From contig JASJCU010000017.1 in NCBI GenBank assembly GCA_030065815.1, forward strand, positions 1 to 33,162: a DNA stretch of 33,162 bases, read 5' to 3'. This DNA comes from Gammaproteobacteria bacterium. Lineage in GTDB: Bacteria; Pseudomonadota; Gammaproteobacteria; Chromatiales; Chromatiaceae. This document shows positions 3,580 through 32,453 of the stretch, piece after piece. The number at the start of each line of letters is the position of its first letter. Position 1 is the first letter of the stretch. The notes below the pieces were generated by a model that was not told where the DNA came from, made no database searches, and saw only the letters and a program-made list of their open reading frames with translations. Position numbers and translations under genes: made by a program.

Positions 3580-4728
3580 ATGTTTATTCCCTGCCGCCTG
3601 CTGACCGCCCTGCTGCTGTTGCTGATCCTGCCGCCGGCCGCCGCCGATATCGTCAAGCCGGCATTGATCGAGATCAGCGTGTTTGCCAAGGGCCACTACC
3701 GGGTCGAGGTCCGCGCCAGCATCGAGGCCCTGCTGACCGGGATCAACGCGCAGTACACGAACACCACCGAGGCGCCGACATCGGACGAGTACGACCGCCT
3801 GCGCGAACTCGAGGCCGCGGACCTGGCCGCGGAATTCATGCCATTCCACGCGCGCATGCTCGAGACCGTCGCGCTGCGCTTCGACGATCGCCAGGTCACG
3901 CCGCGTATCGGCACGATAGACATCCCGGTACCCGGCTACACCAAGGTGCCGCGGATCAGCCTGATCGTGCTCGAGGGGGAGGTCCCCGGCGACGCGTCGA
4001 CGCTGACCTTCTACTACCCGGCCGCGTTCGGCGACAGTGCCGTGCGCGTCCGCCAGGTCGACGAGGCGGCCGAGAAGTGGCACTGGTCGGCGTGGCAGTG
4101 GATCCGCGACGACCGTCCCAGCGAGCCGTTCTCACTGACCGAGGTATTCCGCCCGCCGACCGTCGGCGACATCGTTGTCGAGTACACCACCGCCGGTTTC
4201 GACCACATCATCCCCAGGGGCCTCGATCACATCCTGTTCGTGTTCGGGCTGTTCCTGCTCAGCACGCACCTGCGCCCGCTGCTGTGGCAGGTGACGATGT
4301 TCACGCTCGCCCACACGCTGACGCTGGCCGCGGCGACGACCGGCGTGGTCGACGTGCCGCCGCGCATTGTCGAGCCGCTGATCGCGCTGTCGATCGCCTA
4401 CGTCGGCATCGAGAACATCTGGCACCGTGGCCTGCACAACAGCCGGCTGGTGCTGGTGTTCGCGTTCGGCCTGCTGCACGGCCTGGGTTTCGCCAGCATG
4501 CTGGCCGACTTCGGAATGCCGGACGACGCGTTCGTGACCGCGCTGATCGCGTTCAACGTCGGCGTCGAACTGGGGCAGCTGGCGGTGATACTCGCCGCCT
4601 ATCTGGCGGTCGGCTGGTGGTTCGGTGACAAACCCTACTACCGCCACGTGGTCGTGATCCCGGCGTCGCTGGTGATCAGCGCAGTCGGCCTGTACTGGGC
4701 CTTCGAACGCGTCAGCCTTTTTAGCTGA
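3580..4728 (+). CDS. HupE/UreJ_2 family membrane protein
   Basis: A 382-residue protein with a signal peptide (LLTALLLLLILPPAAAD, residues 7-23), a periplasmic domain of roughly 190 residues and a C-terminal multi-span domain. The latter contains GLDHILFVFGLFLL, FTLAHTLTLAAATT and FGLLHGLGFASML, the conserved histidine-bearing helices of the HupE/UreJ_2 family. Relatives are proposed to move nickel or other metals, but most members have no tested substrate. I chose ATG 3580 because the signal peptide starts immediately; the frame is open upstream to an ATG at 3415, but those residues (RRTPNIKRHLCARARATG) do not resemble a leader. The gene is divergent from soxB across about 200 bp that include a somewhat A/T-richer patch near 3503-3525. 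A link with metal loading of SoxB is only a guess from position. Confidence 0.85.
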   Translation: MFIPCRLLTALLLLLILPPAAADIVKPALIEISVFAKGHYRVEVRASIEALLTGINAQYTNTTEAPTSDEYDRLRELEAADLAAEFMPFHARMLETVALRFDDRQVTPRIGTIDIPVPGYTKVPRISLIVLEGEVPGDASTLTFYYPAAFGDSAVRVRQVDEAAEKWHWSAWQWIRDDRPSEPFSLTEVFRPPTVGDIVVEYTTAGFDHIIPRGLDHILFVFGLFLLSTHLRPLLWQVTMFTLAHTLTLAAATTGVVDVPPRIVEPLIALSIAYVGIENIWHRGLHNSRLVLVFAFGLLHGLGFASMLADFGMPDDAFVTALIAFNVGVELGQLAVILAAYLAVGWWFGDKPYYRHVVVIPASLVISAVGLYWAFERVSLFS

Positions 4729-4982
4729 CCTGCCTGTCACCGGCGCCGGGCGGCGGCAGCGCGACAAGGCCTCGATTCGGAACTGCTTGCCATCAGCTTC
4801 GGCGAACGACCCCATATCGCAGTAGGCGCCCGGCGCTCTTGCATGCGGATTCCTGCGGTTCGTCGCCCGCTGCGGCCGGGCTGTCGCTCGAGGCATGGTT
4901 GCAGGTGTAACGCTTGCGCCAAGCCGGCGCCGCAACGGCGGCGAAAGCCGCGGGACGTGCGATGGCCCATGCAACGGGCCGG

Positions 4983-7900
4983 CTACGACGCGGCCTGCCT
5001 GGCGAGGCTCGGCAGCAGCTCGTCCATCAGCAGCGGTGGCGAGATGCCGAAGCCCTGGGCGAGGTCGACACCGATCTCGCGCACCAGATCGAGGGTCGGC
5101 TGGTCCTTGACGTACTCGGCGATGGTCTTCTTGCCGAGGAAGTGGCCGATGTCGTTGATCGACTTGACCACGGCATAGTCCTCGCGGTCGGTCGCGATGT
5201 CGCGCACGAACACACCGTCGATCTTGAGCCAGTCGACCGGCAGCTCCTTCAGGTACGAGTACGACGCCAGGCCGCTGCCGAAGTCGTCGAGTGCGACCTT
5301 GCAACCGAGTCGTTTCAGTTCCTGGATGATACCGGCCGTGCCGCTCAGGCTGGCCACCGCCGCGGTCTCGGTGACCTCGAAACTGATCCAGTCCGGATCG
5401 ATCGCGGTGCGCGCGAACTGTTGGCGGACGAAGTCGACGAACGCCGGGTCGCTGGCGGTCTGCCCCGACAGATTGACCGCGAAACCGTGCAGCTGCGGCA
5501 TCTGCTCGCGGTGCGCGGAGATCCAGTCGAACACCGATTTGGTCACCCAGCGGTCGACCGCGCGCATGCGCTTGTAGCGCTCCGCGGCCTCGATGAACTC
5601 GGCAATCGGCAGCGCCTCGCGCGAACCGTCGGCGACACCCAGCAGCACCTCGTAGTGCGGCGCGACGCCTTCGCCCGGTCGGACCGGCACGATCGGCTGG
5701 CAACGCAGGCGCAGCTCGCCGTCGACCAGCGCCTCATCGACGCGCGCGACCCACTTCACCGAGTCGCGCTGGCGGACGATCTCGGGGTCGTCGTCGCGGT
5801 ACAGGTGGACCTGGTCACCGCCGCCGGCCTTGGCGACCGCCAGGGCCTGTTCGGCGGCCTGGATGGCGTCACCGGGTCCGTCGGCGGCCGCGCCGAGCAT
5901 GGCGACACCGACCGAGATCGTCAACGCCATCGAGCGGCTGTCCCAGTCGAACGGCATGCGCCGTGCGGCACTGGTCAGGTCCTCGGCCCAACGGGTCGCC
6001 GCGTCGGCCGTCGCGCCGGCCGCCAGCACCGCGAAGCGGTCGGCACCGAGGTGGGCCAGCGTCATGCCGTCGCCGAGGCGTTGCAGCAGCGCCGACACCG
6101 CGACCAGCAACCGATCGCCGGTGGCGTAGCCGTGCAGGTCGTTGATCAGCTTGAACTGGTCGATATCGACCCACAGCAGCGCACCGGCAGGCGCGTCGCC
6201 GCCAGTCTGCACGGCCTTGTCGAGTGCCGCATGGAACTGCCGGCGGTTCATCAGCCCGGTCAGCGAATCGTGCGACGCGAGGTGGCTCAGGCGCGCCTCC
6301 ATGGCCTCGAGCATCTGGCCGACGGCGCGGTCACTGAGCGGCGTGCCATCGACCGGATCGAGGCGAATGTCGCGCTGGTGGATGCCGATCGCGAGATCCA
6401 GCAGGGCGATGTCACGGACCCGGATGCCGCGGTGATCGACCAGCGTGAACAGCTCGCGGTCGCCGCGGATCCACGCCACGCGCAGCACCCGGTCACCGTC
6501 GCTGGCATCGACGAAACGTACGCGGTCGCCGAGGCGCAGGCCGGCACAGGTCGCCAGCGCCTGCGTCCACGCCGCCTCCGGTATCTGCGCGGGGCGCTGC
6601 GCGGCGCCGCTGCTGTCCAGATCATCGCCGAGCGCAGCCATCGCGACGAGCTCGACGTCGGCGCCGCCCACCAGCTGGTCGCGCAGGCGGCCCTCGACGG
6701 CGGTGCGGCGGAACGGGTCGAATGCCGCGGTCTCGAGCTCGGCGCCGATCCGCGTCAGCAGCTCCGCGCGATCGGCAACGACCGGCCGCTCGTCGACCGC
6801 GTCACCGTCGAGGTGGGCGATCACACTGTCGAGCAGCGCGAACTGCTGCGCGTACGCGGCCGGCTGCACCGAGCTGTTCAGCCATGCCAGCTCGAGCACC
6901 GAGCGCCAGCCGACATCGATGAGCTCGGGCACGACGGCCGGCACGCGGCGACCGGCATAGCGCCTGTCGAGTTCGCGGATCACGGCCTCGCGCGCGCGGC
7001 GCACGCGGTCGCGCCCCTCGCTGGCCTCGACGACGCGCTCGACATTGCGCTGGTAGTGGTCGCTCTGTTCGCGGGTCAGCGTCGCGATGTCGTCGGCGAC
7101 GCGGCCGAGCAGCCGCGCGTCGGCGTCGCCGTCCTGCAGCGGCGCCAGCAGCGCATTGACCTGCTGGCGCAGTGCATCGTCGTCGATGCCGCTCTCCGGC
7201 GTCGGCCGGAACAGCTGCAGGTGGCCGAGCGCATCGACGATCGTGTGCAGCGGGTTGTCGTGGCCCTGGAAGAAGGCCGGATCGGCGACCGCCTCGGCGA
7301 CCACCGGCGCATCGATCATCTGCAGCCATTCGCCCATCGCCTGGCTGTTGTCACTGCCGAGCGCGAGGTTGCGCAGCAGGTCGCGCGCCTGGTCCTCGCG
7401 CACCCTGCGATCGCGCGCGACCAGCGCCTCGAGGGCGCGCGCATCGACGGTGACCAGGTTGGCATCGGCCTGGACGGTCGCATCGCCGGCGTCCGCGCTG
7501 CCGGCCGGCACCGTCTCGGCAAGCGACGATGGCGCCGACGCGGCCGCGGCCTGGCGCTGCTGCGCGTCATGCACGGCGGGGTGCGTCGACAGCTTGGCGA
7601 CGCCGGCCGCGTCGAGCACGCCATCGAGCTCCGCATAAAACGGGCCGAGGCGATCGTCGAGCACGCGCACGCAGCGCCCGAACAGGAAGCGGCGCGTCAC
7701 CGCGCCGAGTTCGAGCTGTTCGGCGACCGCCTTCAACGCATCGGTGAAGTGCTTCGGTTCGAACGGCACGACCAGACGATCCGCGGCGTCCTGGCTGCGC
7801 AGCGACGCTAGGCGCGCACCGATTATCGCCAGCTGTTCGGCAAAGTGACCCTCGAGATGGGTCGCCGCCCGCGACGCCTCGAGCCAGCGTTCGAACTCGT

Positions 7901-8567
7901 CGTTGTCGACCAGGCTCATCTCGCCGTCGGCACCGGCATCGGGCCGGTCGACGGCCGCGTCCTGCACCGGGTTCAGCGCCTTGGCCATGACCTCGCGGAT
8001 CAACAGGTCGCGTTTCGCCAGGTCCTCGAGCGCGGCCAGATCGCCGAACACCTGTTGGCGGTCGGCGTCCGACGACACACGGTCGACACCGTCGAGCAGG
8101 TCGTCGAGGGTCGCCGCGAGCAGCTCGCGCAGGATCGCCGGTAGCGTACCCTGCGCGACGTGGCGCATCTTCGCCAGGCAGCGCCCCTCGCCCTGCGGGT
8201 TCGGCTGTCGGTCGTGCGGCGGCGCCGCGCCGGCCAGGCGATCGTGCTCCTGCAGCGCGTCGACGATGACCGCCGACGGCTTGGCGAACGCGATGCCGAG
8301 GTAGTTGTCCTGCAGCCAGCGGACGGTGGCCGGGATCGTGACCGCACGCCGGCCGCCGTTGGTCGCGAGCTGGATCGACAACGCGATCGCCTGGCCGGTG
8401 ACGAACACGGCCTGGGCGCTGCCGCCGTCGCGCAGCGCGATCAGCATGCCGCCGCTGCAGTAGTCGCGCACCTGGCAGGCATGACTGTCATGCCCTTCCG
8501 CACCGATGCGACCGGCAAGCTCGATCTTGTAGCGCGGGTAGCGGCGGCGCTCGCTGTGCAGCGTCAT
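4983..8567 (-). CDS. PilZ-DUF1631-GGDEF-EAL cyclic-di-GMP-related protein
   Basis: An unusually large 1194-residue cytoplasmic protein. Residues about 5-105 are a PilZ-like domain (RRRYPRYKIELAGRIG, later DYCSGGMLIALRD), a c-di-GMP-binding fold. About 125-730 is a helical region resembling DUF1631. About 755-915 is a GGDEF domain (SHDSLTGLMNRRQF, VDIDQFKLIND), but the signature loop reads LGADRF, so cyclase activity is unlikely. About 935-1190 is an EAL domain whose signature reads YEVLL; NLSG, FEVTET, DDFGSG and WLKIDG are present, but the usual AEGVE block reads AEYVK. The phosphodiesterase may be weak or lost, leaving a c-di-GMP sensor or scaffold. The ATG at 8567 fits the PilZ start, although no Shine-Dalgarno is visible. 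It appears to be transcribed alone. Confidence 0.88.
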   Translation of the reverse strand: MTLHSERRRYPRYKIELAGRIGAEGHDSHACQVRDYCSGGMLIALRDGGSAQAVFVTGQAIALSIQLATNGGRRAVTIPATVRWLQDNYLGIAFAKPSAVIVDALQEHDRLAGAAPPHDRQPNPQGEGRCLAKMRHVAQGTLPAILRELLAATLDDLLDGVDRVSSDADRQQVFGDLAALEDLAKRDLLIREVMAKALNPVQDAAVDRPDAGADGEMSLVDNDEFERWLEASRAATHLEGHFAEQLAIIGARLASLRSQDAADRLVVPFEPKHFTDALKAVAEQLELGAVTRRFLFGRCVRVLDDRLGPFYAELDGVLDAAGVAKLSTHPAVHDAQQRQAAAASAPSSLAETVPAGSADAGDATVQADANLVTVDARALEALVARDRRVREDQARDLLRNLALGSDNSQAMGEWLQMIDAPVVAEAVADPAFFQGHDNPLHTIVDALGHLQLFRPTPESGIDDDALRQQVNALLAPLQDGDADARLLGRVADDIATLTREQSDHYQRNVERVVEASEGRDRVRRAREAVIRELDRRYAGRRVPAVVPELIDVGWRSVLELAWLNSSVQPAAYAQQFALLDSVIAHLDGDAVDERPVVADRAELLTRIGAELETAAFDPFRRTAVEGRLRDQLVGGADVELVAMAALGDDLDSSGAAQRPAQIPEAAWTQALATCAGLRLGDRVRFVDASDGDRVLRVAWIRGDRELFTLVDHRGIRVRDIALLDLAIGIHQRDIRLDPVDGTPLSDRAVGQMLEAMEARLSHLASHDSLTGLMNRRQFHAALDKAVQTGGDAPAGALLWVDIDQFKLINDLHGYATGDRLLVAVSALLQRLGDGMTLAHLGADRFAVLAAGATADAATRWAEDLTSAARRMPFDWDSRSMALTISVGVAMLGAAADGPGDAIQAAEQALAVAKAGGGDQVHLYRDDDPEIVRQRDSVKWVARVDEALVDGELRLRCQPIVPVRPGEGVAPHYEVLLGVADGSREALPIAEFIEAAERYKRMRAVDRWVTKSVFDWISAHREQMPQLHGFAVNLSGQTASDPAFVDFVRQQFARTAIDPDWISFEVTETAAVASLSGTAGIIQELKRLGCKVALDDFGSGLASYSYLKELPVDWLKIDGVFVRDIATDREDYAVVKSINDIGHFLGKKTIAEYVKDQPTLDLVREIGVDLAQGFGISPPLLMDELLPSLARQAAS

Positions 8568-27546: not shown

Positions 27547-28233
27547 TCACAACAGCTGCTCGACCAAGGTCGACAGCTCGACGATCTCGAGATCGGCACG
27601 CGCCAGCGCCTGCGGCCACGGCCGGTCGTGGCGATTGACCCAGACCGTCGACAGGCCGAGGCGGCGCGCCGCCGCGACGTCGCGCTGCGGATCATCGCCG
27701 ACGTGCAGGAATCCGTCGAGTGCGATACCACTGCGTTCGCTCGCGGCATGGAAGATCGCCGGATCGGGCTTGGCCGCGCCGACCTCGGCCGCGGTCAGCG
27801 AGATATCGAAACTCGCATGCAGCGGCGTGTGCTCGATCTGGGAATTGCCGTTGGTCACCGAGACCAGCACGAAACGCCGGCGCAGCCGATTAAGGCCGTC
27901 GGCCACGTCGTCATAAGGCGTGACCCGGTTGCGCGCGGCTCGGAACACGTCGCTGGCCGCATGCGCCAGTTCCGCGGGATAGCCGTCGGCGGCGAGCAGC
28001 GGCGCCAGCGAGCGCAGGCGCAGCTCGGTCATGTCGTGCGCGATGTGCGGCTGCTGCCGGGCCAGGGCCATGCGCTGCTCGCGCAGGCCTTCGACGTCGT
28101 AGCGCGCGGTCAGCCGCGGACTGTGTTCGCGCAGCCAGTCGTACCAGGCCTGCTCGGCGGCGCGGATCACCGGCGCGCACGGCCACAGCGTGTCGTCGAG
28201 GTCGAAGCAGATCAGGCGGACGTGGTCGAACAT
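27547..28233 (-). CDS. HAD-superfamily phosphatase (YigB-like)
   Basis: A 228-residue soluble hydrolase with all HAD motifs: I, FDLDDTLW with nucleophile and acid aspartates (residues 10-17); II, VSVTNGN; III, the lysine in GAAKPDPAIF; IV, HVGDDPQRDVAAARRLG. The helical cap after motif I and the total length fit the YigB/HAD-IA group, whose E. coli member dephosphorylates FMN. The true substrate here is not determinable. ATG 28233 directly precedes motif I. It lies 12 nt after the nucleotidyltransferase stop, so it belongs to the same transcript as the HPr-rel-A cassette. A 187-bp gap separates it from the downstream receptor gene. Confidence 0.9.
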   Translation of the reverse strand: MFDHVRLICFDLDDTLWPCAPVIRAAEQAWYDWLREHSPRLTARYDVEGLREQRMALARQQPHIAHDMTELRLRSLAPLLAADGYPAELAHAASDVFRAARNRVTPYDDVADGLNRLRRRFVLVSVTNGNSQIEHTPLHASFDISLTAAEVGAAKPDPAIFHAASERSGIALDGFLHVGDDPQRDVAAARRLGLSTVWVNRHDRPWPQALARADLEIVELSTLVEQLL

Positions 28234-28245
28234 CGCGGGCCCAGG

Positions 28246-29343
28246 TCAGCCGGGCAGCTCGGTGGCCGGCAGCGGCGGCTTGCGCCGCTTCAGCCATTTG
28301 TGCGCGAGGTGGCGCAGCAACAGGCGCGGCGGCATGCGGATCCAGTGCGAACGCACGAACAGCGCGCGTTCGGCGATCGCCGCCGCTGCGGTGCCGGGAC
28401 GCACCGGCGCGAGCAGGCGGTCGATCAGCCAGCGCATCAGCGCATCGACCGGCGGCGCCGGCGCATGGCGACGGATGCCGGCGACGACGTCTCCGGGGAG
28501 TGACAGGCCGATCAGCCGCTGCGCGGCACTGGCGGCGTAGTACAACGCACGGGCGCAGCCGAGCTGCTCGGCGCGCCGCACCAGCTGGGTCGCGAAGTCG
28601 GTATCGGCGGCGCTGAAGTGCACGAACAGGTCACGAAAATCGACGATGTCGCGCAGCCCGCCGCGCAGCTCGTCGTTCATGAACAGGTGGATCGCGTTGT
28701 GTAGCAACAGGTCGGTCGGCGCCGGCAAGGTCAACGGCACGCCGTCCGGCCCCGGTGCCGTGACCGCCGCGCGCCACAGCAGCGCGGCGTCGATGCGCAC
28801 ACGGCTGACCGGTGGCGCCAGGTTGTGGTGCAGGTCGACCTCCATGTCGCGCCTGGCGTGGACCAGCGGCGGCACCTCGTGCATCCAGTCTCGGTAGTAG
28901 TGCTCGTCGTAGCTGTCGAGTTCGCCGCTGGCGCGCCAGCCGGCCTGCTTGAGCGCGGCCTCGGCGGCGTCGACGGCGTCGGGCCGGACCAGCAGGTCGA
29001 CATCCGACAGGTTGCGCCAGCCCGCCGGCGGCAGGCCGGCGAGCAGGTAGGCGACGCCCTTCAGCGGCATCACGTCGATATCCGCGGCATGCAGGGTCGC
29101 GGCGACCTGGCGCCATTCGCGCAGCGCCTGGCCCTGCACGTAGCGGGTCTGCGCACGTGCGCCGTGCAGCTGGTCGAGCAGGCGCGCCGGCAGCGCGTCG
29201 GTCAGGCCGCGCTCCTCGAACAGCGCCAGGCAGCGCCCGAGCAGGCGCGCCGCGCGCGCCAGCGGCAGCAGCGCATTCCACTCCGCGGCACCCCAGTCGC
29301 GCACGACCGCGGGCTCGCCCAGCACATCGGTCAGCAGGCTCAC
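28246..29343 (-). CDS. Nucleotidyltransferase, NTP_transf_5 family (HPr-rel-A cassette)
   Basis: A 365-residue cytoplasmic protein of the uncharacterised NTP_transf_5 group. The signature is VMPLKGVAYLLAGLPPAG followed by RNLSDVDLLVRP, where the D-x-D pair corresponds to the metal-binding aspartates of the nucleotidyltransferase fold. Downstream are DLHHNLAPP and a long helical region (DLLLHNAIHLFMNDELRGGLRDIVDFRDL) as in other members. The tail is basic (HLAHKWLKRRKPPLP). The GTG start overlaps the stop of the kinase gene as GTGA, giving translational coupling. The reaction is presumably transfer of a nucleotide or nucleotide-linked group to an acceptor; the acceptor is unknown. Confidence 0.86.
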   Translation of the reverse strand: MSLLTDVLGEPAVVRDWGAAEWNALLPLARAARLLGRCLALFEERGLTDALPARLLDQLHGARAQTRYVQGQALREWRQVAATLHAADIDVMPLKGVAYLLAGLPPAGWRNLSDVDLLVRPDAVDAAEAALKQAGWRASGELDSYDEHYYRDWMHEVPPLVHARRDMEVDLHHNLAPPVSRVRIDAALLWRAAVTAPGPDGVPLTLPAPTDLLLHNAIHLFMNDELRGGLRDIVDFRDLFVHFSAADTDFATQLVRRAEQLGCARALYYAASAAQRLIGLSLPGDVVAGIRRHAPAPPVDALMRWLIDRLLAPVRPGTAAAAIAERALFVRSHWIRMPPRLLLRHLAHKWLKRRKPPLPATELPG

Positions 29344-30236
29344 CGGTCTGGCTCCGACGGGTCGGCGGCGGCGTCGGCGGCCAGTTCGGCGAGGCGTTCG
29401 ACGGCGCGTTCCAGGCGGCTGAACGTGAACGTGTAACAGTCGGCGCCGCGCACGATCGCGGCAATGGCGTGAAACGCCGTCGCGCCGAGCAGCTTGTAGT
29501 TGAAGCTGTTGAACGCGAGGCGGCGGAACGCATCGGCCTTGTCGAGTGCCTGCAGCGATTCGGCGGCGCCTGCCTGGTAGCGCGGGAACACCAGCCAGCG
29601 CGCGACGGCCGGCTCGTGCTGGCGCGCCACGCTGGCGGCGCTGGGGCGCAGGTGGCGCACCCGCCCCTTGCGGGTCTTCGGGTAGGTCGGGCCCAGCGGC
29701 GCGGCCGGATCGAACGCGAGGATCGCCTCGATCGAGTCGTTCTTCAGCGGGATGCCGCGCGGCATCGGCAGCAGGTCACCGCGTGCCGGGCGCACCAGCC
29801 CGAACTCGTCGGACAGCAGGCGCGCGCCGTGCAGGTCGAGCGCGGCCGCGAGCGTGCTCTTGCCCGACCCCGGGGTACCCGGCAGGATCAGCGCCCGGTC
29901 GCCGAACGCGACGCTGCCGGCGTGCAGCATCAGCAGGTGATGGGCGCTGGTCGCGATACACCAGTTCAGGCCCCATTCGTACATCGGGTAGGCGTTCTCG
30001 GCCGGGTGCGGCTCGAACGGTCGCAGGCTGTCGATCTCGAAGCGCACCTGCGGGCGCAGGTAGCGGCGCACGCCGAACGGCCGGGTGATGCGGACGGCGT
30101 AGTCGAGCACGTGCGGCCCGTCGTCGCACACGCTGTCGCGGTAGAAGAAGGCGAGCGTGTCCAGCAGGCCGCGATCGGCGGAGCGCACGCCGATCCGAAA
30201 CGGACCGGCGTCGAGGATCAGGTCTTGCTCAGGCAC
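29340..30236 (-). CDS. HprK-related kinase A
   Basis: A 298-residue protein related to the C-terminal domain of HPr kinase/phosphorylase. It carries the P-loop ILPGTPGSGKSTLAAAL (about residues 115-131), preceded by LLMLHAGSVAFGDRA and followed by GARLLSDEFGLV, where the aspartate and glutamate match the HprK catalytic region, and PRGIPLKNDSI. True HprK phosphorylates a serine on HPr; here no HPr or PTS gene is visible, and the family is known from a conserved cassette with a PqqD relative and a nucleotidyltransferase. The target is unknown. The start is GTG at 30236; no Shine-Dalgarno stands out. A 37-nt gap separates it from the upstream pqqD-like gene. Confidence 0.88.
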   Translation of the reverse strand: MPEQDLILDAGPFRIGVRSADRGLLDTLAFFYRDSVCDDGPHVLDYAVRITRPFGVRRYLRPQVRFEIDSLRPFEPHPAENAYPMYEWGLNWCIATSAHHLLMLHAGSVAFGDRALILPGTPGSGKSTLAAALDLHGARLLSDEFGLVRPARGDLLPMPRGIPLKNDSIEAILAFDPAAPLGPTYPKTRKGRVRHLRPSAASVARQHEPAVARWLVFPRYQAGAAESLQALDKADAFRRLAFNSFNYKLLGATAFHAIAAIVRGADCYTFTFSRLERAVERLAELAADAAADPSEPDR

Positions 30237-30273
30237 GCGAACCCGGGCCGCCGCGCGGCCGTTCTCCGTTGGC

Positions 30274-30570
30274 TCAGACGGCCTGTGATTCTACTAGCTC
30301 CGCGCCTTCCAGAAACAGCAGTGCTGACACGATCTGCGACTGCGCGGTGGGATCGAGGTCGACCGGGCCGGCGAAGCGTTCGACCAGTTCGCCGAGCGTC
30401 GACGGCTGCTCGTCGATGACCGACAGGATCAGCGACGGCAGGTCACTGAGGAAATGGGTCTCGCCCGACACCGGGTCGAAGACGACACCCTCGCCAACCC
30501 CGCGCTCCCAGACCAGCGCCGCGCCGCGGCGAAACCAGCGCCGCTTCAGGGCGCCCTGCGGCGACGTCAC
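30274..30570 (-). CDS. PqqD-family peptide chaperone (HPr-rel-A system)
   Basis: A 98-residue protein with the PqqD winged-helix pattern: three strands (AALVWERGVGEGVVFDPVSGETHFLSD) leading into the helices SLILSVIDEQPSTLGELVERF and DPTAQSQIVSALLFLEGAELVES. PqqD proteins hold the leader of a precursor peptide for a modifying enzyme. No radical SAM or cyclase gene is in the window, so its partner is probably the kinase or nucleotidyltransferase beside it. The GTG start overlaps the stop of the exported-protein gene as GTGA, making those two products translationally coupled. Confidence 0.85.
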   Translation of the reverse strand: MTSPQGALKRRWFRRGAALVWERGVGEGVVFDPVSGETHFLSDLPSLILSVIDEQPSTLGELVERFAGPVDLDPTAQSQIVSALLFLEGAELVESQAV

Positions 30571-31247
30571 CCTTTGGCGAGCGTGAAGCTACTGGCGTTG
30601 CCGGGATCGACCGACGTCAGGCAGGTCGCCGCGAGGCCCTGGATGTTGCCACCAGGGTGCTGGTCGGGCAGGACACCGACGCGATTGACAGCGGTGGGCG
30701 GACTGCCGACCCGCTCGAACAGCGTCAGCGCCACGCCGTCGCGGTTCGGGAACTCGAGATAGGTCGTGGTGATCGTCGTGTTGGGGTCGGTGAAGTTGAC
30801 CAGCAGACTCGTGCCGCTGGAGCTGTCCAGCGAGACGTTGACGTCGAGCAGCGGCGCCACCAGTGGCACGCTGGTCGTGTCGTCGACGCGGACGAAGAAA
30901 CTGCCCGGCGCGGTCTCGCTCTCGACGATCACGATGCCGGGCTGGTTGAGGTCGGCGATGCCGGTCGGCCACAGCGCCGTGTTCCCCGGAACGCTTGGAT
31001 TCACGGTCGCCTCGCCGCCGCGCCAGTGGACCTTGGTCTCGTAGACGAAACAGTCCGGGTCGCCGACACTGCACATCGTGCCGGTCTCGTGAAAGTTCTG
31101 GGCGACGACTTCACTGCTCAGGCACTGGAAGGCGCTCTGCGTCGCCAGCGCCGACCCGGGGCTCAGCGTCGCAACGACCGGGGCCGTCGACAGCGCTTTG
31201 AACAGGCGACGCCGGTTCTGGGAAATCTTTTCGTCGTGAGCTGCCAT
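30567..31247 (-). CDS. Exported protein heading the HPr-rel-A operon, possible substrate or partner
   Basis: A 226-residue protein with a Tat-like or Sec leader (SQNRRRLFKALSTAPVVATL, then SPGSALATQS) preceded by a polar head. The mature part is predicted all-beta and Thr/Val/Asp-rich (GSFFVRVDDTTSVPLVAP, LLVNFTDPNTTITTTYLEFP) with four cysteines (FQCL, TMCSV, PDCFV, ATCLT). ATG 31247 is favoured over GTG 31253 because AGGAGAG lies 8 nt ahead of it. I do not recognise a family. Being first in the operon and overlapping the PqqD-like gene makes it the best candidate for the molecule that the chaperone, kinase and nucleotidyltransferase act upon; this is inference from order only. A structural or surface role is equally possible. 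Confidence 0.75.
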   Translation of the reverse strand: MAAHDEKISQNRRRLFKALSTAPVVATLSPGSALATQSAFQCLSSEVVAQNFHETGTMCSVGDPDCFVYETKVHWRGGEATVNPSVPGNTALWPTGIADLNQPGIVIVESETAPGSFFVRVDDTTSVPLVAPLLDVNVSLDSSSGTSLLVNFTDPNTTITTTYLEFPNRDGVALTLFERVGSPPTAVNRVGVLPDQHPGGNIQGLAATCLTSVDPGNASSFTLAKG

Positions 31248-31359
31248 CGCCACTACTCTCCTGATCGATACCCGATGGCATGCACATTCGATGCCACGGG
31301 TCTATCTCCTTGATTCGCCAACCGCAATCGCACCCGACGCAGCCTGCCCGCGCAGGCAC

Positions 31360-31436: not shown

Positions 31437-32453
31437 TCATGACCGGCCGGTAGCGCCGGCGTACGGCGCGCGGCAGCGCGGCAGGACCACGGCGGCGACG
31501 AAATCGGCGAGCTGCCGCGTCGCCGGGTAGCAATGGCCGGCATCGACGACATATTGCAGGGTACGCGGTACGTCGCCGAGGTAGCCGGGTTTGCCGTCGC
31601 GATGGTTGAGACGGGCAAAGATCCCCGCGGCCTTGAGGTGGCGCTGTACCCCCATCAGGTCGAACCAGGCGCGCAGCTGCGCGGCATCGATGCCGTCGAG
31701 CAGGCCGAGCGCGGCGGCGTCGCGGCGGTAGCGTTCCAGCCAGGCGTCGACGCGCTGCGCCGGCCAGCGCACGTAACAGTCGCGCAGCAGCGACACCAGG
31801 TCATAGGTGACCGGGCCGGCGACCGCGTCCTGGAAGTCGATGACCCCGGGATTGTCGCGCGCGACGACCATCAGGTTGCGCGAATGGTAGTCGCGGTGCA
31901 CGCAGACCACCGGTTGCGCGAGCGCATTGTCGACCAGTGCGTTGAACGTGGTGTCGAGCATCGCACGCTGCGCCGCATCGGGTTCGATCGCGAGGTGGCG
32001 ACCGAGCAGCCAGTCCGAGAACAGCTGCATCTCGCGCCGCAGCAGGTCGCGGTCGTAGGCCGGCAGGCCGGCGGTCGGCGCACCGGCCTGCAGGCGCAGC
32101 AGCGCGGCGATCGCGTCGCCGTACAGCCGGTCGGCGGACGCGTCGCCGAGCGCGTCGAGGTAGGCGGTCGTACCCAGGTCCTCGAGCAGCAGGAAGCCCT
32201 GCTCGAGATCGGCGGCGTGGATCGTCGGCACGTGCACGCCGGCGGCGGCCATGCGTTCGGCGACGGCGATGAACGGCCGGCAGTCCTCCTTGTCCGGCGG
32301 TGCGTCCATGACCACCAGCGTCGTGCCGTCACCGCGCGTCGCGCGGAAATAGCGCCGAAAACTGGCGTCGGCGGACGCCGGCTCGACGCGGCAATCGGAC
32401 AGGCCGCAGGCATGCGCGAGCCAGTGCTCGAGCTGCCGCAGACGTTCAGGCAT
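31437..32453 (-). CDS. amgK: AmgK: N-acetylmuramate/N-acetylglucosamine 1-kinase
   Basis: A 338-residue kinase of the aminoglycoside-phosphotransferase fold. AmgK phosphorylates recycled MurNAc (and GlcNAc) at the anomeric position, feeding UDP-MurNAc synthesis by MurU. Seen here: ASFRRYFRATRGDGTTLVVMDAPP (nucleotide-binding strands), FLLLEDLG, the catalytic loop VCVHRDYHSRNLMV and metal-binding GVIDFQDAVAGP. Later VQRHLKAAGIFARLNHRDGKPGYL is diagnostic of the AmgK group. GGAG lies 6 nt before the ATG. In related genomes murU normally follows directly; here the next minus-strand gene is the exported protein, so murU is absent from this locus. It is divergent from lptD, the usual arrangement in Gammaproteobacteria. 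Confidence 0.92.
   Translation of the reverse strand: MPERLRQLEHWLAHACGLSDCRVEPASADASFRRYFRATRGDGTTLVVMDAPPDKEDCRPFIAVAERMAAAGVHVPTIHAADLEQGFLLLEDLGTTAYLDALGDASADRLYGDAIAALLRLQAGAPTAGLPAYDRDLLRREMQLFSDWLLGRHLAIEPDAAQRAMLDTTFNALVDNALAQPVVCVHRDYHSRNLMVVARDNPGVIDFQDAVAGPVTYDLVSLLRDCYVRWPAQRVDAWLERYRRDAAALGLLDGIDAAQLRAWFDLMGVQRHLKAAGIFARLNHRDGKPGYLGDVPRTLQYVVDAGHCYPATRQLADFVAAVVLPRCRAPYAGATGRS

Follow-up and report, generated by a model that had tools for sequence, protein, structure and literature searches.

Which protein does the HPr-rel-A cassette act on? This gene set is defined in NCBIfam by an HprK-related kinase A (TIGR04352) and a PqqD family peptide chaperone (TIGR04353), and is named and widespread among bacteria yet functionally blank. 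One copy lies in the window analyzed here, a stretch of 33,162 nucleotides from a gammaproteobacterium of the family Chromatiaceae, next to a gene for an exported protein. The original prediction was that this protein is the substrate of the cassette, modified before export while its leader is held by the PqqD-like protein.

The arrangement first read from the sequence, of four genes between 28,246 and 31,247, all on the minus strand like every feature given below, was recovered. The gene for the exported precursor (30,567–31,247), identified as an open reading frame, by protein search and by a leader HMM, encodes 226 residues from the ATG at 31,247 and is assigned to substrate type 1. It is followed by the PqqD-like protein (30,274–30,570; TIGR04353 over cut-off), a discrete RRE predicted to hold the leader, the HprK-related kinase A (29,340–30,236; TIGR04352, 349.3 bits against a cut-off of 200), and a nucleotidyltransferase-fold protein of the NTP_transf_5 family (28,246–29,343; PF14907, E 9.3e-49). 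With both TIGR models over cut-off and PF14907 as neighbor, the trio is a member of HPr-rel-A. GTGA overlaps occur at two junctions, as had been read from the sequence (30,570–30,567 and 29,343–29,340), and the third, between the PqqD-like and HprK-like genes, is a 37-nt gap. NCBIfam and Pfam scans also bear out the absence of a radical SAM enzyme among the cassette genes. An in-frame GTG at 31,253 precedes the ATG of the precursor, and residue numbers are counted from this GTG; in relatives from the genus, whose starts were chosen by script, the protein starts at this ATG with M-[AE]-A-H-[DN]-x-x-I-S.

If the precursor belongs to the cassette, a leader-bearing exported gene should accompany the trio in relatives. 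Of the 146 genomes in the window's GTDB family, 53 have a kinase above the TIGR04352 cut-off, as do 61 of 398 in a phylum sample; the cassette is also present in a cultured purple sulfur bacterium, Marichromatium gracile DSM 203 (L023). Our comparison covers 155 loci, a count that excludes the window, the kinase loci of G155 and G074, five loci whose weak kinase match falls below the cut-off (L113–L117), and four from the phylum search in which the kinase is partial or at a contig start (G579, G530, G685, and G669). An HMM finds the substrate gene in 130 of the 155, 15 assignments by motif and position rather than HMM bring the number to 145, and counting L197 and L205 it is 147; start codons and substrate types were called with regular expressions and by eye. 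Five untruncated kinase loci have no visible substrate nearby (L176, L177, L189, L198, and L212). The NTP_transf_5 nucleotidyltransferase is present in 143 loci, and the PqqD-like gene went undetected in L197 and in five substrate-assigned loci (L174, L195, L199, L200, and L201).

For held-out searches (E ≤ 0.01), a leader HMM was built from 15 named loci together with those of the window's GTDB family. At the class level it gave 36 matches among the 6078 open reading frames of 40 loci, all on the strand of the kinase and less than 1 kb upstream of it, so that the kinase-upstream substrate gene was found in 36 of 40 loci and no other reading frame matched. At the phylum level, 32 of 7982 reading frames in 53 loci matched, 31 of them placed in the same way relative to the kinase. 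Shuffled reading frames gave no matches. Across the 146 family genomes, 51 carry both kinase and leader, two the kinase only, one the leader only, and 92 neither (Fisher p ~1e-35), and a contig end interrupts the locus in each of the three that disagree. Every leader match at E < 1e-6 has the kinase on its contig, apart from those in G069 and G074, whose kinases sit at contig ends, and at this threshold the model finds nothing in the 92 kinase-less genomes. A genus search with the window's substrate matched in eight of nine genomes, its own and seven relatives, in which the match lies next to the trio; the remaining genome, G001, carries at L079 a type 1 precursor that has diverged. By the held-out search and the co-occurrence table, the arrangement is not due to chance. 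These data support a leader specific to the HPr-rel-A cassette, and the substrate gene very probably belongs to the cassette as its dedicated substrate.

The types of substrate follow the kinase tree, on which the type changes three times (146 labelled rows), compared with six changes on the NTP_transf_5 tree and ten on the PqqD-like tree; both types occur within the window's GTDB family. Two alignments were used for the types. A1 holds the window, one type 3 substrate, and 62 of 69 type 1 representatives (without L094, L097, L190, L191, L199, L200, and L211), and A2 comprises the type 2 representatives other than L025 and L086, 40 of 42. Later typing moved L199, L200, L187, L070, and L147 to type 2 and the two omitted from A2, L025 and L086, to type 1.

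Precursors range from 74 to 287 residues. Their conservation is concentrated in the leader, the most strongly conserved part, and in Ser/Cys motifs, with a variable middle; the shortest substrates, of 74–82 residues, retain little besides these elements. In the window the leader (31,143–31,247) has the pattern R-R-R-L-F-K ... A-P-V-V-x-T-L ... S-A-L-A, matches the leader HMM with E 1e-14 in its own genome, and is also a predicted Tat-like signal peptide. Its twin arginine R14-R15 (31,209–31,214) is invariant in the 64 rows of A1, and R14, R15, P25, T29, and A37 are invariant in A7, an alignment of relatives. The A-x-A pattern suggests cleavage after A37. TatC is encoded in the window's genome (E 9.1e-69), and the Pfam TAT_signal model matches two of 64 precursors and not the window's protein.

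Cleavage at this site would make Ser40 (31,134–31,136), invariant in the 23 rows of A7, residue +3 of the core and a candidate phosphorylation site. The residue 15 positions after the leader proline is Ser in 74 of 85 type 1 precursors. A second candidate site is Ser214, in the C-terminal motif T-C-L-T-S (30,612–30,626); this serine is invariant in A7 and across the 64 selected rows of A1; because the rows of A7 were hand-picked as relatives with the S-C type of motif, the invariance of C211 and S214 there is partly a matter of choice, whereas S40 and C44 were not selection criteria. Counted before the retyping, the strict C-terminal motif occurs in 56 of 86 type 1 substrates, against 0.5 expected (the largest of 200 shuffles gave 4), in all eight of type 3, and in none of the 49 of type 2. 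A single universal target serine is ruled out, since type 2 substrates do not have this motif. Although cores diverge, most type 1 substrates keep Ser at the predicted core position 3 and the C-terminal Ser motif.

The exported protein does have four cysteines as described (C44, C62, C69, and C211), but its description as beta-rich did not hold up, the AlphaFold2 model built on A7 having a mean pLDDT of 49. Nothing scored over cut-off for it in NCBIfam or Pfam, and a single-sequence search of the PDB returned nothing significant. The 64 type 1/3 and 40 type 2 rows are likewise uncovered by NCBIfam and Pfam models, with scattered weak matches in one or two members each.

The PqqD-like protein scores 40.6 bits with TIGR04353 (cut-off 35) and 15.8 with the PF05402 PqqD model, below its cut-off of 23.4. 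Its AlphaFold2 model is confident (mean pLDDT 92.9), and the best fold matches in the PDB are lasso B1–leader complexes (5v1v, Z 9.7; 5v1u, Z 9.4), with 6jx3 (Z 8.5) and PqqD (5sxy, Z 7.9) further down; the structural lead of these RRE matches is small, TigE reaching Z 8.6 and the human hydroxylase 2xdv Z 8.0. Its profile matches TbiB1 (E 4e-6) and TfuB1 (E 1.1e-5), and a single-sequence PDB search found nothing significant. Model and profile support an RRE of the lasso B1 type, with a predicted wHTH fold closest to the leader-binding B1 proteins. The [Y/W] anchor by which lasso and LPP leaders bind the RRE is absent, the window having Ser at −3 from the proline.

In the kinase, the conserved His, P-loop, and Asp are present, and H105, G125, K126, D143, and E144 are invariant (100%) among the 156 aligned rows wherever a row has a residue at the position. 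The same holds for K95, G96, D114, D116, and D170 of the NTP_transf_5 protein (144 rows aligned), and the catalytic residues of both enzymes are intact. The kinase profile matches the solved HPr kinases 3tqf, 1ko7, 1jb1, and 2qmh at a non-significant E of 0.16–0.28, with an unrelated kinase ahead at 0.13, and single-sequence PDB searches with either enzyme gave nothing significant.

Scans of the cassette's surroundings took in 59 of the 101 and 76 of the 118 flanking proteins listed and show the first 25 of 296 and of 459 families, so that what they report is a minimum. A HAD phosphatase gene (27,547–28,233) follows the window's cassette after 12 nt, as had been noted, and was considered as a fifth component; as a general part of the system it is rejected, with a match near the cassette in nine of the 155 other loci. 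Seven of these, all from the genus, have it directly downstream on the same strand (L013, L014, L103, L104, L106, L108, and L110), and in L079 and L081 it lies on the other side. It is a neighbor within the genus, where it may be co-transcribed. A TPR-sulfotransferase-like gene is found in 12 of 155 loci. Neither a lasso macrolactam synthetase (C), a B2 protease, nor an archaeal-type signal peptidase (SpI) occurs among the window's cassette genes and the scanned flanking genes. In the distant loci, three of the 76 flanking proteins are among the matches listed for a lasso-cyclase model and the same number for an XrtA amidotransferase model, which we read as the same three proteins.

The shared leader and the conserved serines suggest that the enzymes modify the exported protein before it leaves the cell. 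We consider it fairly probable that the cassette is a phospho-RiPP-like pathway with the logic of the lasso and LPP kinase systems, a protein-sized, Tat-like exported substrate, and no macrocyclase. The RRE would bind the leader, which is also the Tat-like signal peptide, thereby presenting the substrate and holding back export; binding of the leader is the part of which we are rather confident. The HprK-like kinase would then phosphorylate Ser+3 of type 1 substrates or the Ser of the C-terminal S-C-x-x-S-[FLI] motif, and a Ser of the C-[ST]-x-S-G block in type 2, and phosphorylation of a conserved serine has somewhat the better of the argument. More tentatively, the NTP_transf_5 protein might add a sugar or a nucleotide to the Ser phosphate. 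The modified protein would be exported, probably through Tat as we favor on balance, and the leader cut at A-x-A.

Other accounts of the locus differ in what they ask of the trio. The precursor might be a hitch-hiker with an ordinary Tat signal peptide while the trio acts elsewhere, for example on cell-envelope sugars or a PTS-like carrier, as the twin-Arg and A-x-A pattern, the location of some loci in XrtA/PEP-CTERM-like exopolysaccharide regions (an amidotransferase-like gene occurs in 23 of 155 loci), and the AmgK-like sugar kinase near the cassette in the window and 22 of 155 loci would allow. This is very unlikely, given that the leader model is silent in the 92 kinase-less genomes, which are presumably rich in Tat signals, that substrate types follow the kinase tree, and that the shortest substrates keep so little besides leader and motifs. 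It is just as improbable that the nucleotidyltransferase AMPylates or UMPylates the protein directly and the kinase acts on a small-molecule donor: its Asp residues are fully conserved, a trait of active nucleotidyltransferases, and the description of PF14907 goes no further than an uncharacterised nucleotidyltransferase, but the kinase of the characterized relatives acts on a precursor Ser in the portions of the reports drawn on here (PMC9266682, PMC13381572).

Somewhat less remote, though still unlikely, is regulation of export itself instead of the making of a modified product, with the RRE-like protein as a chaperone of the Tat signal peptide and phosphorylation of the serine next to the cleavage site as a reversible switch for release or cleavage. 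The most conserved N-terminal Ser of type 1 cores adjoins the predicted cleavage site, the strongest conservation lies in the leader, and the LPP precursor is poorly cleaved when unphosphorylated, according to the sections of that report considered here (PMC13381572). Such a switch leaves the nucleotidyltransferase and the conserved C-terminal motif unexplained, and the lone phosphatase-like neighbor is the HAD gene, near the cassette in so few loci. We retain the phospho-RiPP-like reading. A broader version, to which we give little credence, makes HPr-rel-A a phospho-glycoprotein export pathway general to Pseudomonadota. In it the RRE would be a quality-control chaperone for Tat signals, conserved serines of a dedicated protein would be decorated in the cytoplasm by the kinase and by a nucleotidyltransferase that forms sugar phosphates, joined in some loci by a sulfotransferase, and the product would anchor or prime exopolysaccharide; that some cassettes sit inside XrtA/PEP-CTERM-like exopolysaccharide loci fits this version.

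Now that a substrate of its own can be assigned to the cassette, along with a leader, a presenting protein, and candidate residues, its function becomes directly testable. The substrate family, the leader, and the candidate sites are additions to HPr-rel-A, on which a literature search returned nothing relevant except the LPP paper (PMC13381572) and no paper naming the system. If the proposed pathway is correct, RRE-guided phospho-modification extends from small peptides to exported proteins, and RiPP-type leader recognition would seem to be tied to the Tat pathway, a link on which literature searches pairing twin-arginine signals with PqqD, or RREs with Tat, found no paper. Nor did any turn up that connects exosortase with PqqD or HprK.

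The closest known counterparts are the linear polyphosphorylated peptides (LPP) of Bacillota (Popov et al. 2026, PMC13381572), as described in the parts of that paper used here. They share with the window a discrete RRE, an HprK-like kinase, an NTP transferase, a precursor gene, and the lack of a macrocyclase, and with the cassette in general a precursor conserved at the N-terminus and variable at the C-terminus (35–200 aa). The LPP consensus is YxxPxVLxHQxIxFETxxS, in which S3 is the proven target of LppK; LppN had no detectable activity in the heterologous host. The distance of 15 from Pro to Ser, which makes this Ser the third core residue, recurs here, and of the motif YxxPxVL ... xxS the window's leader has the Pro, the hydrophobic residue at +2, and Ser+15, but not the aromatic residue. 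Unlike the LPP systems as set out in these parts, the present cassette occurs in Pseudomonadota with a Tat-like leader, has neither an archaeal-type signal peptidase nor an MsbA-like exporter, and has substrates of up to 287 aa, many with the C-terminal S-C-x-x-S motif (PMC13381572). In lasso peptides of the paeninodin/pseudomycoidin type, going by the relevant excerpts, an HprK homologue phosphorylates the C-terminal Ser (PMC9266682, PMC8498205), the nucleotidyltransferase PsmN is required for hexoses on the precursor Ser phosphate (PMC9266682), discrete B1 proteins are likewise present, and sulfotransferase genes flank some clusters, like the TPR-sulfotransferase-like gene here (PMC9266682, PMC8498205). 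The cassette differs from phosphorylated lasso systems in having no macrolactam cyclase or B2 protease and a protein-sized, signal-bearing substrate. In REMP chaperones, a small protein holds the Tat signal of redox enzymes until maturation is complete; these have a different fold, whereas the HPr-rel-A cassette couples an RRE to a kinase and a nucleotidyltransferase.

Re-reading of the sequence confirmed the originally predicted gene order and junctions of the cassette (28246-31247, minus strand), in which the gene of an exported putative substrate lies upstream of those for a PqqD-like protein, an HprK-related kinase and an NTP_transf_5 protein. The trio is an HPr-rel-A member: in NCBIfam the kinase exceeds the curated cut-off of the HPr-rel-A model TIGR04352 and the PqqD-like protein that of TIGR04353, and in Pfam the third enzyme belongs to PF14907 (NTP_transf_5). 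A scan of the exported protein against NCBIfam and Pfam gave no family over cut-off.

The predicted structure of the PqqD-like protein (mean pLDDT 92.9) has its best matches (Z 9.7 and 9.4) in crystal structures of the lasso-peptide RiPP recognition element (RRE) TbiB1 in complex with leader peptides; TfuB1 (Z 8.5) and PqqD (Z 7.9) also match. Since TigE (8.6) and a human hydroxylase (8.0) fall in the same range, and Z values of 7 to 8 are common background, it is the sequence profile that carries weight for the RRE reading; it retrieves TbiB1 at 4e-6, TfuB1 at 1.1e-5 and 9x90 (paeninodin-type PbaB1) at 0.15. His105, the P-loop Gly125-Lys126 and Asp143-Glu144 of the kinase, and Lys95-Gly96, Asp114, Asp116 and Asp170 of NTP_transf_5, are conserved in every aligned row that covers the position. 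The window's genome also encodes a second, weak TIGR04352-like kinase outside the cassette (E 1.5e-13; G000:C143:16444-16611, locus L002).

For comparison we assembled 155 different loci that carry a TIGR04352-type kinase, the window itself not among them: 62 are those of the window's GTDB family plus 15 named loci, after removal of eight duplicates, 40 come from a class sample and 53 from a phylum sample. The PqqD-like gene was detected in 144/155 and NTP_transf_5 in 143/155. A single-sequence search with the 47-residue N-terminus of the window's exported protein picked out, in many loci, the ORF that precedes the PqqD-like gene, and a leader HMM refined by iteration covered 68 of the first 70 loci (duplicates counted). 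A 32-position HMM built from the family and named loci only (threshold E <= 0.01) matched 36 of 6078 ORFs in the held-out class loci, every one of them on the kinase strand and less than 1 kb away on its upstream side. In the held-out phylum loci it matched 32 of 7982 ORFs, 31 of them so placed; residue-shuffled ORFs gave zero matches. Refined on all loci, the leader HMM found 130/155, with one extra match to a second precursor in L086, where two leader-bearing genes lie upstream of one trio. In fifteen further loci a twin-Arg leader can be recognized in the corresponding ORF, by motif and position rather than by HMM, and L197 and L205 also carry such a gene. The expectation that a leader-bearing gene consistently accompanies the trio in other genomes was thus borne out in 147/155 loci. 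In three of the other eight (L084, L111 and L149) a contig end leaves too little upstream sequence; neither a leader-bearing gene nor a PqqD-like gene was found in L176, L177, L189 and L198; and L212 has the PqqD-like gene and no detectable leader-bearing ORF. The pairing of substrate and PqqD-like gene is imperfect, since the latter also went undetected in six loci that have a substrate (L174, L195, L197, L199, L200 and L201). Five loci (L063, L072, L078, L080 and L083) depart from the upstream position: their precursor gene is on the other strand, ~2.6-3 kb downstream from where the kinase starts.

The leader looks like a Tat signal from its sequence, with the twin Arg present in all 64 rows of an alignment of type 1 and type 3 precursors (see below), and TatC is encoded in the window's genome. 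A basic residue occurs within RR+14 to RR+29 in 50/85 type 1, 45/52 type 2 and 8/8 type 3 leaders. Whether the model simply detects Tat signals can be judged from 146 whole family genomes, each scored for both the leader (E < 1e-6) and the kinase (over cut-off): 51 have both, 92 neither, two only the kinase and one only the leader (Fisher p about 1e-35), the positives being partly so by construction because the leader model was built from such loci, which does not apply to the 92 clean negatives. In the discordant genomes G155 and G075 the kinase lies ~500 nt or less from the upstream contig end, and in G013 it is truncated by one; weak leader matches only (E 0.001-0.01) in seven genomes were treated as noise. 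The kinase-less genomes presumably hold many ordinary Tat signals; if so, the leader model is no generic Tat detector.

Three recurring substrate types, labelled partly by hand, could be distinguished among the cassette loci. Type 1 substrates (85 loci, plus that of the window) carry the leader R-R-R-L-[LF]-K ... A-P-[VA]-[IV]-x-T-L-x-S-G-x-A-x-A and vary in the middle; most also have a C-terminal S-C-[WLY]-[TASGN]-S-[FLI] or looser form, often at the extreme end. The shortest precursors, of 74 (L142:5532-5753) and 82 residues (L183:6094-6339), extend barely beyond the leader and the two motifs, and are good model substrates. In type 3 (eight loci of the phylum sample, sphingomonad-like in sequence), the leader is shorter and the C-terminal motif recurs as T-C-[FY]-A-S-L. 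The leader of type 2 (52 loci) ends around T-L-A-S-R-P-V-[LW]-[AG]; after it come C-[ST]-x-S-G-x-x-S-G-N-x-S and a larger domain that is conserved, with C58, S61, S65, S69, C76, W84 and N162 near-invariant in 40 rows; the C-terminal motif of types 1 and 3 is missing. Within the last 40 residues, and with types as they stood before a later reassignment, 56/86 type 1, 8/8 type 3 and 0/49 type 2 substrates carry the strict motif [ST]Cxx-S-[FLIVMA], against mean expectations from shuffles of each mature part of 0.51, 0.005 and 0.23, and 81/86, 8/8 and 6/49 the looser [CASGT]xx-S-[FLIVM], against 18.5, 1.2 and 10.9. In type 1 leaders, Ala stands at +12 from the conserved Pro in 73/85 and Ser at +15 in 74/85 (at +14 in seven of the 11 others), which places this Ser at +3 after the predicted A-x-A cleavage site. 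Besides the start Met, R14, R15, P25, T29, A37, S40, C44, C211 and S214 (counted from the GTG at 31253) are invariant in 23 hand-chosen relatives; in the broader set of 64 rows, invariance is confined to R14, R15 and S214. Substrate type changes three times on the kinase tree (156 rows, 146 labelled), six times on that of NTP_transf_5 and ten times on that of the PqqD-like protein; as the window's family includes both type 1 and type 2 substrates, type tracks the kinase and not merely the family.

The wider neighbourhood is less constant. The YigB-like HAD hydrolase and the TAXI-type TRAP solute-binding protein downstream of the window's cassette (both NCBIfam matches) have counterparts in 9/155 and 6/155 other loci, and are essentially its genus-level setting. 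The AmgK-like sugar kinase upstream (31437-32453) is matched in 22/155. This recurrence may reflect a functional link to the cassette; since AmgK is a commoner neighbour in the family than these two, on either side and in either orientation, it looks more like a mark of a shared chromosomal (insertion) site than a cassette gene. The genus-mate G001 (L049/L079) has a diverged type 1 substrate, its cassette being flanked by counterparts of the window's HAD and AmgK genes and inverted relative to them, as if the site had been re-used. Elsewhere in the window, 4986-8567 encodes a single 1194-residue protein combining DUF1631, GGDEF and EAL domains. An XrtA/PEP-CTERM amidotransferase-like protein (scoring above 400 bits against one of three queries) shares the stretch with the cassette in 23/155 loci, often with glycosyltransferases (among L161-L196, for example L171:1214-3115 and L163:1901-3805); the amidotransferase model TIGR03108 matches 3/76 scanned flanking proteins. 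A TPR-sulfotransferase is matched in 12/155 loci (E <= 1e-30), lying in L171 between the kinase and NTP_transf_5 genes (4192-5904, minus strand, PF13469). Capsule loci are also a frequent site of paeninodin clusters and of those for the linear polyphosphorylated peptides (LPPs) of Bacillota (PMC13381572), and some Firmicutes lasso clusters with such kinases start with a sulfotransferase gene (PMC8498205). A role of the cassette at the cell surface is plausible.

As far as the literature was searched, we found no account of a dedicated substrate family, its leader or candidate modification sites for this cassette, and these are what is new here. For lasso precursors, two reports describe phosphorylation of the C-terminal Ser by PadeK and a requirement for PsmN, an annotated nucleotidyltransferase, for hexoses on that phosphate, perhaps by an indirect route via a host glycosyltransferase (PMC9266682, PMC8498205). 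LPP precursors are described as linear, 35-200 residues long and conserved at the N-terminus; they are acted on by an HprK-like kinase, which targets core Ser3, by an NTP transferase and by an RRE, which binds Y-x-x-P-x-V with the Pro at residue -13 (PMC13381572). From this shared logic, and from the type 1 leader's matching Pro at -13, hydrophobic residue at -11 and Ser at +3, we propose a scheme whose every chemical step we infer: the RRE-like protein would hold the substrate leader, the kinase would phosphorylate a conserved Ser, which may differ between substrate types, and the nucleotidyltransferase would then work on the phosphate, all before export by the Tat-like signal. We rejected assignment of the cassette to the LPPs, because no SpI (archaeal-type signal) peptidase was found among the cassette genes and the flanking genes scanned in the window, and the window's leader has no aromatic residue (Y/W) at -16, and to the lasso systems, because the same genes include no cyclase or B2. 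In its logic, the cassette nevertheless appears, by analogy, to resemble both.
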